Assembly (NCBI GenBank): GCA_019637755.1
Contig: JAHBVC010000001.1
Span: 124,001-188,000, forward strand
Source: Anaerolineales bacterium
GTDB taxonomy: Bacteria; Chloroflexota; Anaerolineae; Anaerolineales; UBA11579
DNA: 64,000 bases
Direction: 5' to 3'
Numbering within the stretch: position 1 is the first letter of the stretch; the number at the start of each line of letters is the position of its first letter. The notes beneath the pieces are model-generated. The model saw only the letters and a list, made by a program, of their open reading frames with translations. It did no database searches and was not told the DNA's origin. The position numbers were made by a program, and so were the translations under genes. Shown in pieces: positions 15,991-21,431 of this stretch.

Positions 15991-17409
15991 TTAGTCCGAA
16001 AGATCTTTTACTTCTTCCTGCTCGGCTTCTTTGCCGAAGTAGAAGCTGCGCACCGGCGCTACTTTGGCGGGCTGCACCGTCTGCTCTACAAAGCGGCGCG
16101 TGCCGGCCAGAGCCAGCAGCTCGAAGAGCAAGCCGAACTGTGCTTCCCACGCATCGGTGATTTGGGCTTTGTCCGCCGGGCTCAGGTCCCAGAAAGCTTC
16201 TTTGAACGGGCCGATGGCACGTTTGCGATTCTCGTAGAGGAATTGCTCATCCGTGTGGTTGGGCTTGCGGTCACCGCTGTAGTGCTCGTTCACATAGGCA
16301 TATACCGCGCTCAGCATGGGCTTGGGCAGGCGCCCAAAGGCCATGTTTTGGAAGTTGGTCGCCAGGTGCACCTCACAGGCTTCGGCTTCCACAAACTTGC
16401 CGAAGGCATCCTGCGGTAGGGTACTGGCGCCGTGCTGTACCGCGCCGCCGTAGCCGTAGCTGCGTGCCACGCGGCTGAGTTGTAGCAAGGTGTCAAAGTC
16501 CACCTTCACCTGTGCCACCGAACCATCCGGCAGCACAACGCCGCCGTGGGAAGTGCCGGTTTGAATACTGATCTTGCTCAGGCCGACTAAATCGCCGTCT
16601 TTGGCGGCCAGCGCTTCGTTATAGCCGTCTACATAGGCGCGCAGCTCTTCCTCAGTAGAGTTCTGGCTGCCCACTTCGCCAATCTCGCCGCCCACGGAAA
16701 CGGTAACGCCGGCGGGCTGATGTTGGCGGATGAATTGCGTGAAATGTGCCGAGAGCTCAGCGTTGATGGCCTGCTGGGCGCGTTCACCCGCGAGGCTAAT
16801 GTCCACCAAGGTAGAGGTATCGACGTCAATGTTGTAGAAGCCAGCCTGCATGGCTTCGGTGGTCAGCTCCTCAACCGCGCTGATCTCTTTGTCCGCGTCT
16901 TGCTTGTAGCGCGAGGCGGAAATTTGGAAATGATCGCCTTGGATGAAGACCGGGCCGCGGTAGCCTTCGGCCACGGCCGCGCCGAGGATGTTGGTGGCGT
17001 ATTCAGCCGGGCGCTGGGCGGTGTAACCGATCTCGGAGCGCGCAATCTCGAAGATGAAGGCGGCTGCGTTGATCTTGTTCGCCACGCGGAACACGGCGCG
17101 GGCGGCATCGAAGGCGAGCACGCGCAGGTTCATGGCCGGCACGGTGAAGCTAGGCGGCACCTCGCCGCGGCCGCGCGCCAGGTACAGGTCGTGGATGCTG
17201 GCCGGCACGGCGCCCAGCTCCAGGGCGATCAGGCGCACCAGGTAGCGCGCCCAGGCCTGCTCATTCTCGCTGCCGAGGCCCGCCAGGCGCACCAGCTCGC
17301 CAATGCGGCTGCGTACTGCGGCCTCGTCAGAAATAAAAATGGCTCCCTCGCGGTATTCAGCGGCGGAACCAAGGGCGGATGTAATGGAAGTGGGGGCTTC
17401 AGCAGTCAT
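15991..17409 (-). CDS. Class II aldolase (fructose-bisphosphate aldolase-like)
   Basis: A 472-residue TIM-barrel aldolase of the class II, zinc-dependent type. VFIQGDHFQISASRY near residue 155 carries the first metal His, GGEIGEVGSQNSTEEELRAY the catalytic-loop acidic region, and YGYGGAVQHGAST another metal His. It would split or form a ketose-bisphosphate in the cytoplasm. It is much longer than typical FbaA/GatY (280-360), with about 85 extra N-terminal residues and a longer C-terminus, so the exact substrate is open. The start is ATG 17409; TAAAAT lies 9 nt before it. Confidence 0.8.
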   Translation of the reverse strand: MTAEAPTSITSALGSAAEYREGAIFISDEAAVRSRIGELVRLAGLGSENEQAWARYLVRLIALELGAVPASIHDLYLARGRGEVPPSFTVPAMNLRVLAFDAARAVFRVANKINAAAFIFEIARSEIGYTAQRPAEYATNILGAAVAEGYRGPVFIQGDHFQISASRYKQDADKEISAVEELTTEAMQAGFYNIDVDTSTLVDISLAGERAQQAINAELSAHFTQFIRQHQPAGVTVSVGGEIGEVGSQNSTEEELRAYVDGYNEALAAKDGDLVGLSKISIQTGTSHGGVVLPDGSVAQVKVDFDTLLQLSRVARSYGYGGAVQHGASTLPQDAFGKFVEAEACEVHLATNFQNMAFGRLPKPMLSAVYAYVNEHYSGDRKPNHTDEQFLYENRKRAIGPFKEAFWDLSPADKAQITDAWEAQFGLLFELLALAGTRRFVEQTVQPAKVAPVRSFYFGKEAEQEEVKDLSD

Positions 17410-17529: not shown

Positions 17530-18054
17530 ATGAGCGATATGTTGGATAGGATTTCTGAAGATCAGGACCCGTTTCGCAAGTTGGCCAGCAAGTTGCCCGG
17601 TTTTTCAGGCTATATTGAACGCGAAAATCGCCGCGCCGCAGACAAGATCCTGCGGGAGAGCCTGGCCGATAGATTTGAGGCCATCCGCAAGCAGTTGAGT
17701 GATGTGCAGAAGGACCTGGCGGCTGGTCAGGAGCTAAGTTATCTCGACGACCTCGAAGGGGCGGCTACCAAGCTGCAAACCTTTGTGGACAAAATCCGCA
17801 CCGCCGCCTATGGCAATAGCAGTTTTTTCGAAGCGATCAAAATCAATGCCGACGAGCTGGCTAACGTGTACGAATACGATCTCGCCTTGCTGACCCATGC
17901 CGAAGATATTGAGCGCGGCGTGCAGAATCTGGCGGCCTCTGTGGGCACTGATGGCATGGCAGCCGCTGTGCGCCATGTGGTGATGCAGAGCCGTGACGTA
18001 GTGGCGGCGTTCGAGCAGCGCAGCGAAGTGATTACTGGCCATTCAGCCGAATAA
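17530..18054 (+). CDS. Hypothetical helical protein upstream of the SPFH gene
   Basis: A 174-residue protein predicted almost all helical, with heptad-like segments (SLADRFEAIRKQLSDVQKDL) and no signal or TM segment. No domain is recognised. GTGAGG lies about 7 nt before the ATG at 17530, and TATAAT is about 40 nt upstream. It is followed after 26 nt by the SPFH-HTH gene with its own GAGGAG, so the two form an operon and the product is probably its partner. Confidence 0.7.
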   Translation: MSDMLDRISEDQDPFRKLASKLPGFSGYIERENRRAADKILRESLADRFEAIRKQLSDVQKDLAAGQELSYLDDLEGAATKLQTFVDKIRTAAYGNSSFFEAIKINADELANVYEYDLALLTHAEDIERGVQNLAASVGTDGMAAAVRHVVMQSRDVVAAFEQRSEVITGHSAE

Positions 18055-18080
18055 GCTGACCCAAGAGGAGAGTAGAGACC

Positions 18081-19112
18081 ATGGCGCGTATCTTTGATGT
18101 AATTGAATACCCGAATGAGATGAAGGAAGAGATCGTGCATCGCTTCCCTGAGAGCGGTGCGGGTGATTTCCGCATCGGTTCGCAGGTGATCGTGCGCGAA
18201 TCGCAGAGCGCCGTCTTCTTCCGTGACGGCAAGGCGCTGGATGTCTTCAAGCCCGGCCGTCACACCATCGCCACGGCCAACATCCCGTATCTTATTGACC
18301 TGATCGGCAAGGCCTTCAACGACCGCAGCCCCTTCACGGCTGAGGTCTACTTTGTCTCGCGCCGTGAGTTCCTTGACCGCAAGTGGGGCACTCCGCAGCC
18401 CATCGTGATGCAGACCCCCGGCGTGGGCCTGGGCTGGCTACTGCTGCAGGGCTTCGGCACCTATTCGTATTCTGTGGAGGACCCGCAGCAGTTCGTGACC
18501 CAGGTGGTGGGCACACAGGGCGTGTACGACACTGTGGATATTGAGAATGATCTGCGCTCGCGCTTGCTGCGCTCCTTCTCTGACCTGCTGGGTGAGATGA
18601 AGGGCAAGTACACCACGGTGCAGGACATCATCGGCAACCAGGAAGAGATCGGTGCCGCGGTACGCGCCAAAGCGCAGGATGACTTTGAAGCGCGCGGCCT
18701 GACGCTGAAGGCGTTCGTGATCGCTAACATGACGCCTTCGCCCACCAGCGCCGAGGCGCTGCGCGGTATGGGCCTGCTGGACACGGCCACCTATACGCAG
18801 CTGCAGGCAGCCGACGCTATGCGCGAAGCGGCCAACAACCCCAGCGGCGGCGCCGGCCTGACGGCTGGCATCGGTGCCGGTGTGGGTATTGGCCAGGTGA
18901 TGAGTGAGGCGCTCAAGAGTGCTGGCACCAGCGCCGCCGCTGCCGCGGCCAGCATGCCGGATGTGATGACTACCGCCGAAGCCGCCAACATCCTCAAGGT
19001 GGCCGAGGCCGACATCCTGGCCGCCATCGAGGCCAAGGAGCTGAGTGCCCGCAAAGTGGGCGAGAGCTACCGCATCAGCAAGGCCGCCATGGAGAAGTTC
19101 CTCGGCGGGTAG
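18081..19112 (+). CDS. SPFH/Band-7 protein with C-terminal excisionase-like HTH
   Basis: A 343-residue protein. Residues 1-225 form an SPFH/Band-7 region (SQVIVRESQSAVFFRDGKAL near residue 33, then ARGLTLKAFVIANMTPSP) of the 'virion core protein-like' bacterial subgroup, without an N-terminal TM helix. A Gly/Ala-rich linker (about 240-293) leads to VMTTAEAANILKVAEADILA ... KVGESYRISKAAMEKFL, a MerR/excisionase-type DNA-binding fold. SPFH proteins oligomerise into rings; the HTH suggests DNA contact, but how both act together is not known. GAGGAG precedes the ATG. Confidence 0.85.
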   Translation: MARIFDVIEYPNEMKEEIVHRFPESGAGDFRIGSQVIVRESQSAVFFRDGKALDVFKPGRHTIATANIPYLIDLIGKAFNDRSPFTAEVYFVSRREFLDRKWGTPQPIVMQTPGVGLGWLLLQGFGTYSYSVEDPQQFVTQVVGTQGVYDTVDIENDLRSRLLRSFSDLLGEMKGKYTTVQDIIGNQEEIGAAVRAKAQDDFEARGLTLKAFVIANMTPSPTSAEALRGMGLLDTATYTQLQAADAMREAANNPSGGAGLTAGIGAGVGIGQVMSEALKSAGTSAAAAAASMPDVMTTAEAANILKVAEADILAAIEAKELSARKVGESYRISKAAMEKFLGG

Positions 19113-19322: not shown

Positions 19323-20390
19323 ATGCAATCTGTATCTATGGATGTAAGTAGAGTGTTGCGGCCAGTTCTAAAGTGGGGGCTGGCCTCAGTCGCCGTTTTG
19401 GTGCTCGCCGCATGCAAGGGGGGCGGCGTAGGGCCGGTGTCTACGCATACACCCAGCCCTTCGCCTACGGCTACGTGTGATGCGAACTTCGTGTTGGCAA
19501 CTCCCGAGGGATGGAAATCGCAGTCCAATCTGGTAGTGCTTGTGTATGACCCTACCTCAATGCGTAACGAGAATTTGGTCTTGGAGGCCATTGATGGGAA
19601 GCTCACCAATAATGTAGAGGAGTTTGCCTATTACCTGGCAAACAAACTCTTCCATGATGGTATGGCTTCACAGATTTCAGTTTTTGAATTGGGCTGGCGT
19701 TCTTATGAAGAAGCGCGTCGCGTACGCATCTCCACCACGATTGAGCGCCCCGAACTATACGACACCCCCTCGCCGCTCGCGACGGTGACGCCGTATCCGA
19801 CGGTTGATCACGGCCCCAGCCAGGGTCTTGATGTCATTCGCGCAACAAATGAAGCTAAGCAGCAAGCCACCGAGCAAGCCCAGGCGGCCGAGCTGATCCG
19901 CCAATTGGATGGCTGTGCGCAAGTTGCCTGGGACACCTTGGCCAAGCACACCGCCACCGTGTGGGCCGCTACTCAGGAGGTGGAGAAGCTGCGCGCCACG
20001 CAGACCCTGCAGCCGCCGGTTGCCCCCACGCGCAGTGGGGTAGAGATGCAGGCAACGCCTACGCCGTATTCGCGTCAGTCTGTGTATCACGGCTTGTGGC
20101 ACGCCAACATTGACTTCAATGCAGATTGCAAGAAATACGATCGTTGCATTCTGCTGATTCTGGACGATTTGCGCACCTGGGCTACCGACAACCCCAACGG
20201 CCATCCATTCAACTTTGAAGGCGTGGAAATTTATGTACTGATGCCGGATTGCCGCGATATCAACCAGCCTAGTTGTGTGGAACTGCAAGACTACTGGACG
20301 CAGGAACTACTGCGCTACGGCGCGTTGAGTGTGAATTACTTCAACGGCGAGCGCGCCGAATTCAAGTTGAATGAAATGTTGAGGAGATAG
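19323..20390 (+). CDS. Lipoprotein of unknown function
   Basis: A 355-residue protein. The signal peptide has the lipobox LAAC (Cys near residue 31), followed by a Thr/Pro/Ser spacer and a globular region. The globular part has NLVVLVYDPTSMRNENLV near residue 70, vaguely like a von Willebrand A edge strand but without a clear MIDAS, a Gln/Ala-rich helix (about 175-200), and a Cys-containing C-terminal domain (CDANF, LDGC, DCKKYDRC, MPDC, SC). It is followed 3 nt later by a membrane-protein gene, so they probably work together. Confidence 0.65.
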   Translation: MQSVSMDVSRVLRPVLKWGLASVAVLVLAACKGGGVGPVSTHTPSPSPTATCDANFVLATPEGWKSQSNLVVLVYDPTSMRNENLVLEAIDGKLTNNVEEFAYYLANKLFHDGMASQISVFELGWRSYEEARRVRISTTIERPELYDTPSPLATVTPYPTVDHGPSQGLDVIRATNEAKQQATEQAQAAELIRQLDGCAQVAWDTLAKHTATVWAATQEVEKLRATQTLQPPVAPTRSGVEMQATPTPYSRQSVYHGLWHANIDFNADCKKYDRCILLILDDLRTWATDNPNGHPFNFEGVEIYVLMPDCRDINQPSCVELQDYWTQELLRYGALSVNYFNGERAEFKLNEMLRR

Positions 20391-20393
20391 AAG

Positions 20394-21431
20394 ATGTTGC
20401 AATTTTTATATGATCTTTCGCAATCCCCGTTCTTCCCCATCCTGCTTTTTATCTGGGTGGCCATCGATATTTTCTGGACCAAGCGATGGCGCGCTCTATT
20501 TGAGCGCCTGGGCAAGCTGGTTACCAAGCCGTGGATCTTTGCCAAGGATCCTGAGCCGAAAGTGCCGCCGCTGTATCCGCGTGAAATGCTCGAGCAGCTT
20601 GCGCAGGTGTCCAGCACGCGTGAACGCAAGAGCGATGATGTCCGTGCTAAAACCACCTCCGCCGAGGGTAAAGAGACAAAGAAGCCAAAGATGGGCTTCC
20701 TTGCCTCGCTGCGCGAACGCATTTTTGATAGCGATCACCCCTTTCGCACGGTAGGCTACGTAATCTTCCTGGCCGGCTTCGTGTTCTTCCTAGTGGCCGA
20801 TGCCATCTCGGTGGCGCAGACCCTGGCCGTGATGGGGTTGATCACCGAGGTGCTCACGGGGGTGTTCACCCGCTTTGATCTGGCGGTTTTGGGTGGTGCA
20901 CTCCTCTCGGCGATCATCGGCGTCTGGGTGTATATGGAGGCGCTAGGGGATAGCCACATTATCGATCTTGATATCCTCAACGATGCGCAGCGCCGCTTCC
21001 TGCGCGGGCTGGCACTGTTCGTCTCCTTCAACTCCGTATTGGTCATGGTGGCCTTTGCGATCAATCGCCTCACCGCCATCCAAATTCTGGAATCGAACCC
21101 CACGCTGGATATCCTGCTGAGTGCTGTTTTGTACGGCTTGGTACCGATCAACAGTGCCCTGGCCGCGGCGATCTGCTTCCCCTGGGCGATGAACGGCCTG
21201 TTGGTGCTGCTATTCATCATCGGCTTCGTCATTATCGGCATCCTCCCAGTGATCGCTTTCCTGGTGGATATCTTGTGGCGCATCGGCTATGTGGTCATTG
21301 ACATTGCCGCCTGGGCGCTATTTACCCCGCTCATGTTGCTGCCCGAACTGATCAACCGTTTGCGCGGCGCACTGGATACGGATCCATCTGGAAAGAAATC
21401 GCCAGCTGATAGCAAGGAAAAAACCAAGTAG
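20394..21431 (+). CDS. Polytopic membrane protein of unknown function
   Basis: A 345-residue protein: an N-terminal TM helix, a charged cytoplasmic region (about 40-110) and at least five further TM segments from residue 118. The last cytoplasmic tail is basic (SGKKSPADSKEKTK). No transporter signature is visible. GAGGAG inside the end of the preceding lipoprotein gene serves as its ribosome site, so the two are translationally linked. A terminator follows. Confidence 0.7.
   Translation: MLQFLYDLSQSPFFPILLFIWVAIDIFWTKRWRALFERLGKLVTKPWIFAKDPEPKVPPLYPREMLEQLAQVSSTRERKSDDVRAKTTSAEGKETKKPKMGFLASLRERIFDSDHPFRTVGYVIFLAGFVFFLVADAISVAQTLAVMGLITEVLTGVFTRFDLAVLGGALLSAIIGVWVYMEALGDSHIIDLDILNDAQRRFLRGLALFVSFNSVLVMVAFAINRLTAIQILESNPTLDILLSAVLYGLVPINSALAAAICFPWAMNGLLVLLFIIGFVIIGILPVIAFLVDILWRIGYVVIDIAAWALFTPLMLLPELINRLRGALDTDPSGKKSPADSKEKTK

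Follow-up and report, generated by a model that had tools for sequence, protein, structure and literature searches.

The window, a stretch of 64,000 nt from the genome of an Anaerolineales bacterium (2.26 Mb in 2 contigs), encodes a protein that runs from an SPFH domain through a Gly/Ala-rich segment to an HTH_17 module at its C-terminus, and the gene for a helical partner ends 26 nt upstream (Table 1). This domain order, which the original prediction had proposed, was borne out by Pfam, since both domains scored above their cut-offs: PF13421 (Band_7_1) matched residues 19-218 with E 5.6e-49 (167.1 bits vs a cut-off of 24), and PF12728 (HTH_17) matched residues 295-341 with E 1.7e-8 (35 bits vs 27), improving to E 5e-10 when the tail was searched alone.

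Table 1. Features of the SPFH-HTH locus, with positions in the window
Feature	Position	Strand	Basis
Helical partner, 174 aa, distant NF047596 (LIMLP_15305 family) relative	17530..18054	+	NCBIfam, AlphaFold2
AAGAGGAGAG, Shine-Dalgarno-like, just 5' of the SPFH gene	18063..18072	+	Sequence reading
SPFH/Band_7_1 + Gly/Ala segment + HTH_17 protein, 343 aa	18081..19112	+	ORF, ATG start, Pfam, AlphaFold2
SPFH (Band_7_1) domain, residues 19-218	18135..18734	+	PF13421, VIA fold matches
Gly/Ala-rich conserved segment, residues 253-293	18837..18959	+	Invariant G265/G267, dN/dS
HTH_17-fold C-terminal module, residues 294-343	18960..19109	+	PF12728, Xis and BldC fold match
Recognition-helix segment AEADILAAIEAKE, residues 308-320, acidic, DNA-contact positions lost	19002..19040	+	BldC alignment, 121-sequence counts

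The protein is an SPFH/Band_7_1 member by profile and by fold, as the core of its AlphaFold2 model matched flotillin, stomatin and prohibitin chains with VIA Z of about 11.6 over 109-154 residues. A sequence search of the whole protein against the PDB gave just two matches, both at chance level, and no TM helix was noted on reading the sequence. In the model, the HTH blocks (residues 291-343) have a mean pLDDT of 82-93, and residues 255-290 fall below 50. The closest named locus, from Anaerolineales bacterium ACE_CHL7, is 94% identical across the whole SPFH-HTH protein. Adjacent downstream are a lipoprotein-like gene (19323-20390) and a gene for a multi-helix membrane protein (20394-21431), neither of which has a Pfam match (E up to 1) or an NCBIfam match (E up to 0.01). 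Upstream, on the opposite strand and outside the partner-SPFH unit, is a class II aldolase-like gene (15991-17409, 472 aa) that scores far below the NCBIfam cut-offs.

The helical partner had also been predicted, and its AlphaFold2 model agrees, being all helix with a pLDDT of 83.5. We found that the partner aligns to nearly all of the model of NF047596, the LIMLP_15305 family of Leptospira (E 1.4e-16, residues 2-167 aligned to positions 5-172 of the 175 in the model), with 60.9 bits, far under the equivalog cut-off of 210, which was reached in 0 of 298 genomes of the class. The partner is a distant NF047596 relative outside that equivalog. In the part of PMC7567364 available to us, LIMLP_15305 is mentioned once, in a table of non-coding RNAs. 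A PspA/ESCRT-III homologue was considered for the partner and rejected, with no PspA Pfam match and no clear structural match; its best fold matches, to IncA (Foldseek E 0.02, VIA Z 11.3), are within the range of unrelated helical bundles.

The two genes are linked well beyond the window. Of the class loci, 99 extend 700 nt or more upstream of the SPFH gene, and in 76 of these the partner adjoins it upstream (same strand, gap of at most 200 nt, median 48); the partner lies further upstream in 5 and was not found in 18, 17 of them HTH-type. Several genomes without the partner at the SPFH locus have a partner match elsewhere. In the 80 named loci, some of which end at contig edges, the partner is upstream in 49. 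Partner and SPFH are inherited together, their distances being correlated (Mantel r 0.575, 0 of 999 shuffles, 76 pairs), a result that requires no interaction because shared descent alone predicts it. The association of shared tail class with partner distance (coefficient -0.018, 0 of 500 shuffles) ignores relatedness and is given no weight.

Many relatives have a longer operon, in which DUF2207 and a TM protein with a PCI-like and a zinc-ribbon domain precede the SPFH gene. The same-strand order DUF2207, TM protein, partner, SPFH was found in 39 of 100 class loci, and the other orders were those without DUF2207 (12), without the partner (2), partner and SPFH (29) and SPFH alone (18); the genes were named from Pfam and TM helices were read by eye, and incomplete loci could only depress the counts of the longer orders. 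One example is L071:620-5221, with a DUF2207 membrane protein, the TM protein, the partner and SPFH. The PCI-like domain of the TM protein is a winged helix, so these operons hold a second, membrane-bound one.

Within the window, membrane-anchor genes are absent alongside the SPFH gene. The window genome (completeness 96.8) gave no match to DUF2207_C, although in the order 25 of 61 genomes have one with E of 0.001 or less, 19 of them above cut-off. The TM protein had no match in the window genome either, in a search run without a positive control. PspA (PF04012) had 0 matches in the window genome, with control matches in 9 of 14 genomes, and is present in 5 of the 61 order genomes. PspA as a client in the window genome was rejected for want of a match. 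Since PspA is missing there and rare in the order, the partner and SPFH pair persists without it.

The closest known protein is YdjI of Bacillus subtilis, which is likewise an SPFH protein with a low-complexity segment, a small C-terminal module and no TM helix predicted, encoded in an operon with partner genes (pspA-ydjGHI; PMC8581546, as far as its available text goes). According to that text, YdjI brings PspA to the membrane, and two membrane proteins, YdjG and YdjH, anchor YdjI and PspA. The DUF2207/TM-protein operon of the relatives recalls pspA-ydjG-ydjH-ydjI (PMC8581546), with no homology to YdjG/H implied. The systems differ in that YdjI ends in a zinc finger (PMC8581546) and the window protein in an HTH, and in that PspA was not found in the window genome and nothing in the window corresponds to YdjG/H. 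By this analogy, the window protein most likely works like YdjI, which would agree with the membrane-organising or stress role put forward in the original prediction; with the client missing, we do not claim membership of the phage-shock system (PSP is surveyed in PMC9239133).

We compared the tails of 100 SPFH loci drawn from the 247 genomes with a match among the 298 of the class; the loci are not a random sample, 40 having been chosen for spread and 60 by match strength. Band_7_1 was present in all 100 (Pfam), and the tails were HTH_17 in 54, a double zinc ribbon (ZnR) in 18, a SHOCT-like hairpin in 26 and GYF_2 in 2. These classes were set by regular expression and then checked with Pfam, and the SHOCT-like one is a remainder class of helical hairpins recognised by eye (Pfam SHOCT matches in 12 of 100 loci with E of 0.01 or less). 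A quick tree built on the core (residues 1-232) has 35 of 97 inner branches open and several long rows; on it, the tail labels change 15 times (minimum 3, shuffled mean 40.6), and the starred branches force at least 3 changes for HTH, at least 4 for SHOCT-like and at least 2 for ZnR tails. All 80 named loci, which are by construction those nearest to the window, have the HTH_17 tail as judged from the printed tails, that of L231 ending at a contig edge. In a phylum sample, 60 of 301 genomes have the SPFH protein, and comparison with the tail search (E < 1e-20) placed the HTH form in 29 of the 60: 28 of 37 in the class, including 25 of 25 in the order of the window, and 1 of the 23 from other classes. 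The tail is an exchangeable occupant of a socket rather than a fixed part of the SPFH protein.

This exchange is a natural experiment, with four unrelated small folds in one socket on one SPFH core. Since the partner family stays the same while the modules on the one core change, the different tails appear to serve one role. Exchange alone is no proof of a protein target, because binding to nucleic acid is within the reach of HTH and zinc-ribbon domains and has been proposed for SHOCT (PMC3581485, in the part available). A property common to the four tails, such as binding of a partner, anchoring or self-assembly, would explain the role of the C-terminal modules of bacterial SPFH proteins. Tails of this general kind are known: in the available parts of PMC3581485 and PMC11237479, Band_7_1 proteins with SHOCT and band-7 proteins with ZnR have the same order of domain and small C-terminal module, and SHOCT is most often joined to PF13421 (PMC3581485). 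Unlike those, the tail studied here is an HTH_17 with a changed DNA face that takes part in a four-module exchange; the literature searched described neither point, nor an HTH_17 tail on an SPFH/Band_7_1 protein.

The tail has the HTH_17/MerR-like wHTH fold of BldC and phage Xis, as had been predicted. TIGR01764 ('excise', NCBIfam) matched it with 36.5 bits (cut-off 28.8), and VIA-align superposed the AlphaFold2 tail on Pukovnik Xis (4j2n; Z 7.6, 1.7 A over 54 residues) and on BldC bound to DNA (6amk; Z 7.4, 1.2 A over 50 residues). Searched as a profile against the PDB, the tail had Pukovnik Xis as its top match (E 5.5e-4), the next ones being repeat proteins that look like chance. Hence, the tail neither failed to match HTH profiles nor lacked conservation, as it passed the cut-off and recurs in more than half of the class relatives compared.

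The DNA-reading face is another matter. In our own residue-by-residue reading of the VIA-aligned ranges, A310, D311, L313, A314, A315, E317 and E320 take the places of BldC Lys26, Thr27, Thr29, Arg30, Trp31, Lys33 and Lys36, which in the available text of PMC5859096 contact bases or the backbone; there, the R30A change essentially abolished DNA binding. Unlike BldC, the window protein thus has Ala, Asp, Leu, Ala and Ala at the first five positions, in an acidic helix. The loss is general among 133 SPFH-HTH rows, 121 of them distinct over residues 294-341 (L231, truncated at a contig end, was excluded). In all 121, segment 308-320 has a net charge of -5 to -1 and position 311 is Asp; position 314 is never Lys or Arg (Ala in 89, Glu in 10, Ser in 9, Asp in 3), and position 313 is Leu, Ile, Met or Val in 104.

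HTH_17 domains of the same phylum differ from these. In 21 distinct control segments (30 loci less 5 SPFH-HTH, 2 unreadable at the expected place and 2 copies or near-copies), the net charge is 0 to +2, and in a set enlarged to 31 with ten picked by hand from the phylum tail-search matches it is -3 to +3, with one negative. The 313 position is Tyr or Arg in all 31, and the 314 position is Lys or Arg in 16. The recognition-helix contacts that mark DNA-binding HTH_17/excisionase-type wHTH proteins were found neither in the window tail nor in the 121, so the tail keeps the fold and is not classed as a DNA-binding excisionase-type protein. Basic residues are kept elsewhere in the tail (Lys or Arg at 324 in 121 of 121, at 325 in 113 and at 334 in 120, and R331 in all), which makes some nucleic-acid affinity conceivable and counts against a role in protein docking. 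Judged by the lost recognition-helix contacts, DNA binding by the tail is unlikely and disfavoured. The case is a warning that a scaffold protein with a C-terminal HTH_17 call does not necessarily bind DNA.

The Gly/Ala segment was predicted as a linker, and it is present; passive joining was not upheld, because the Gly and Ala positions of the segment rank with the most conserved of the alignment, and G265 and G267 do not vary in any of the four tail classes. Two distinct comparisons gave dN/dS values of 0.16 for the HTH, 0.07-0.08 for the Gly segment and 0.04-0.05 for the core (L182, as a third row, had the same numbers as L194). Hence, the HTH is under purifying selection, weaker than that on the Gly segment and the core.

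We favour, at a probability of roughly 60%, a YdjI-type cytoplasmic SPFH scaffold that uses its tail, an exchangeable module, for docking or assembly and does not tether DNA. The SPFH cores would assemble into an oligomer at the inner face of the membrane, in the manner of SPFH proteins of similar structure, and the scaffold, co-expressed with the helical partner, would organise or protect the membrane. The Gly segment may be a constrained flexible or membrane-facing element, and the tail would serve to dock a protein, a further subunit or the partner. In the HTH_17 of the window lineage, the acidic recognition helix and the basic hairpin would now serve protein contacts, and the partner would be a client or effector in the place of PspA. 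Two observations count against this reading: B. subtilis reaches the membrane through YdjG/H, while neither DUF2207 nor the TM protein was found in the window genome, and the fold of the partner had no clear match. The locus points to an SPFH-partner pair that has endured without PspA.

As a special case of docking, the HTH tails on an SPFH ring might pack head to tail like BldC protomers and so polymerise or clamp the ring without DNA, the acidic helix having replaced the DNA-reading helix and packing on the basic hairpin of its neighbour; we regard this as doubtful. Every SPFH-HTH sequence has this bipolar charge. At positions of the BldC head-tail interface, formed by Arg22-Glu16' and Gly44 (PMC5859096, available text), the SPFH-HTH tails have Lys or Arg at 306 in 113 of 121 (9 of 31 controls), E300 in 110 of 121 and Gly327 in 121 of 121. 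However, Glu at the 300 position is common in the controls too (19 of 31), the BldC dimer forms only on DNA, and the zinc ribbon, SHOCT-like and GYF_2 tails are without such an interface. If such packing does occur, a DNA-binding switch would have become a polymer clasp that does the job of the zinc ribbon, SHOCT and GYF_2 of sister proteins.

The original prediction suggested that such a protein could tether DNA to the membrane or respond to stress; in this rival reading, the HTH would bind DNA and tie it to the membrane, or release it on stress as a membrane-bound regulator. The genuine HTH_17 fold, the retained basic wing and the conservation of a tail under selection would fit this, but the BldC recognition-helix contacts are gone in 121 distinct sequences, the DNA face being taken over by acidic and aliphatic residues in every SPFH-HTH examined, and otherwise orthologous proteins have a zinc ribbon, SHOCT-like or GYF_2 module instead. 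We consider such tethering quite improbable, and the earlier reading as a whole is partly supported. Non-specific binding of RNA or DNA through the basic hairpin, with the acidic helix exposed to solvent, would draw on the conserved basic positions 324, 325, 331 and 334, but the charge of the whole domain is near neutral (0 to +5 outside the recognition segment), and we hold it to be very unlikely. That the tail is the functionless, decaying remnant of a transcription factor fused to the protein would account for the lost DNA-contact residues but is scarcely credible given its dN/dS and the invariance of D311, G327 and R331.

For acidic HTH domains outside SPFH proteins, we read 14 loci among the phylum tail-search matches. 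Two are SPFH proteins, both acidic, with Asp at the 311 position in one and Glu in the other; a 960-aa protein (L311) is also acidic, and the remainder appear canonical by eye. In L311, the HTH_17 lies near the start of the 960-aa frame, outside the SPFH proteins, and its recognition helix has a net charge of -3. Two of the loci (L310 and L314) have HTH_17 in a 320-aa protein with a C-terminal Cys-pair motif, an unusual fusion in which we take the segment after the HTH_17 to resemble Clp N-terminal repeats. In three proteins of 183-203 aa (L304, L305 and L316), from genomes of 1.7-1.9 Mb, a canonical HTH_17 precedes what appears by eye to be a response-regulator receiver domain.
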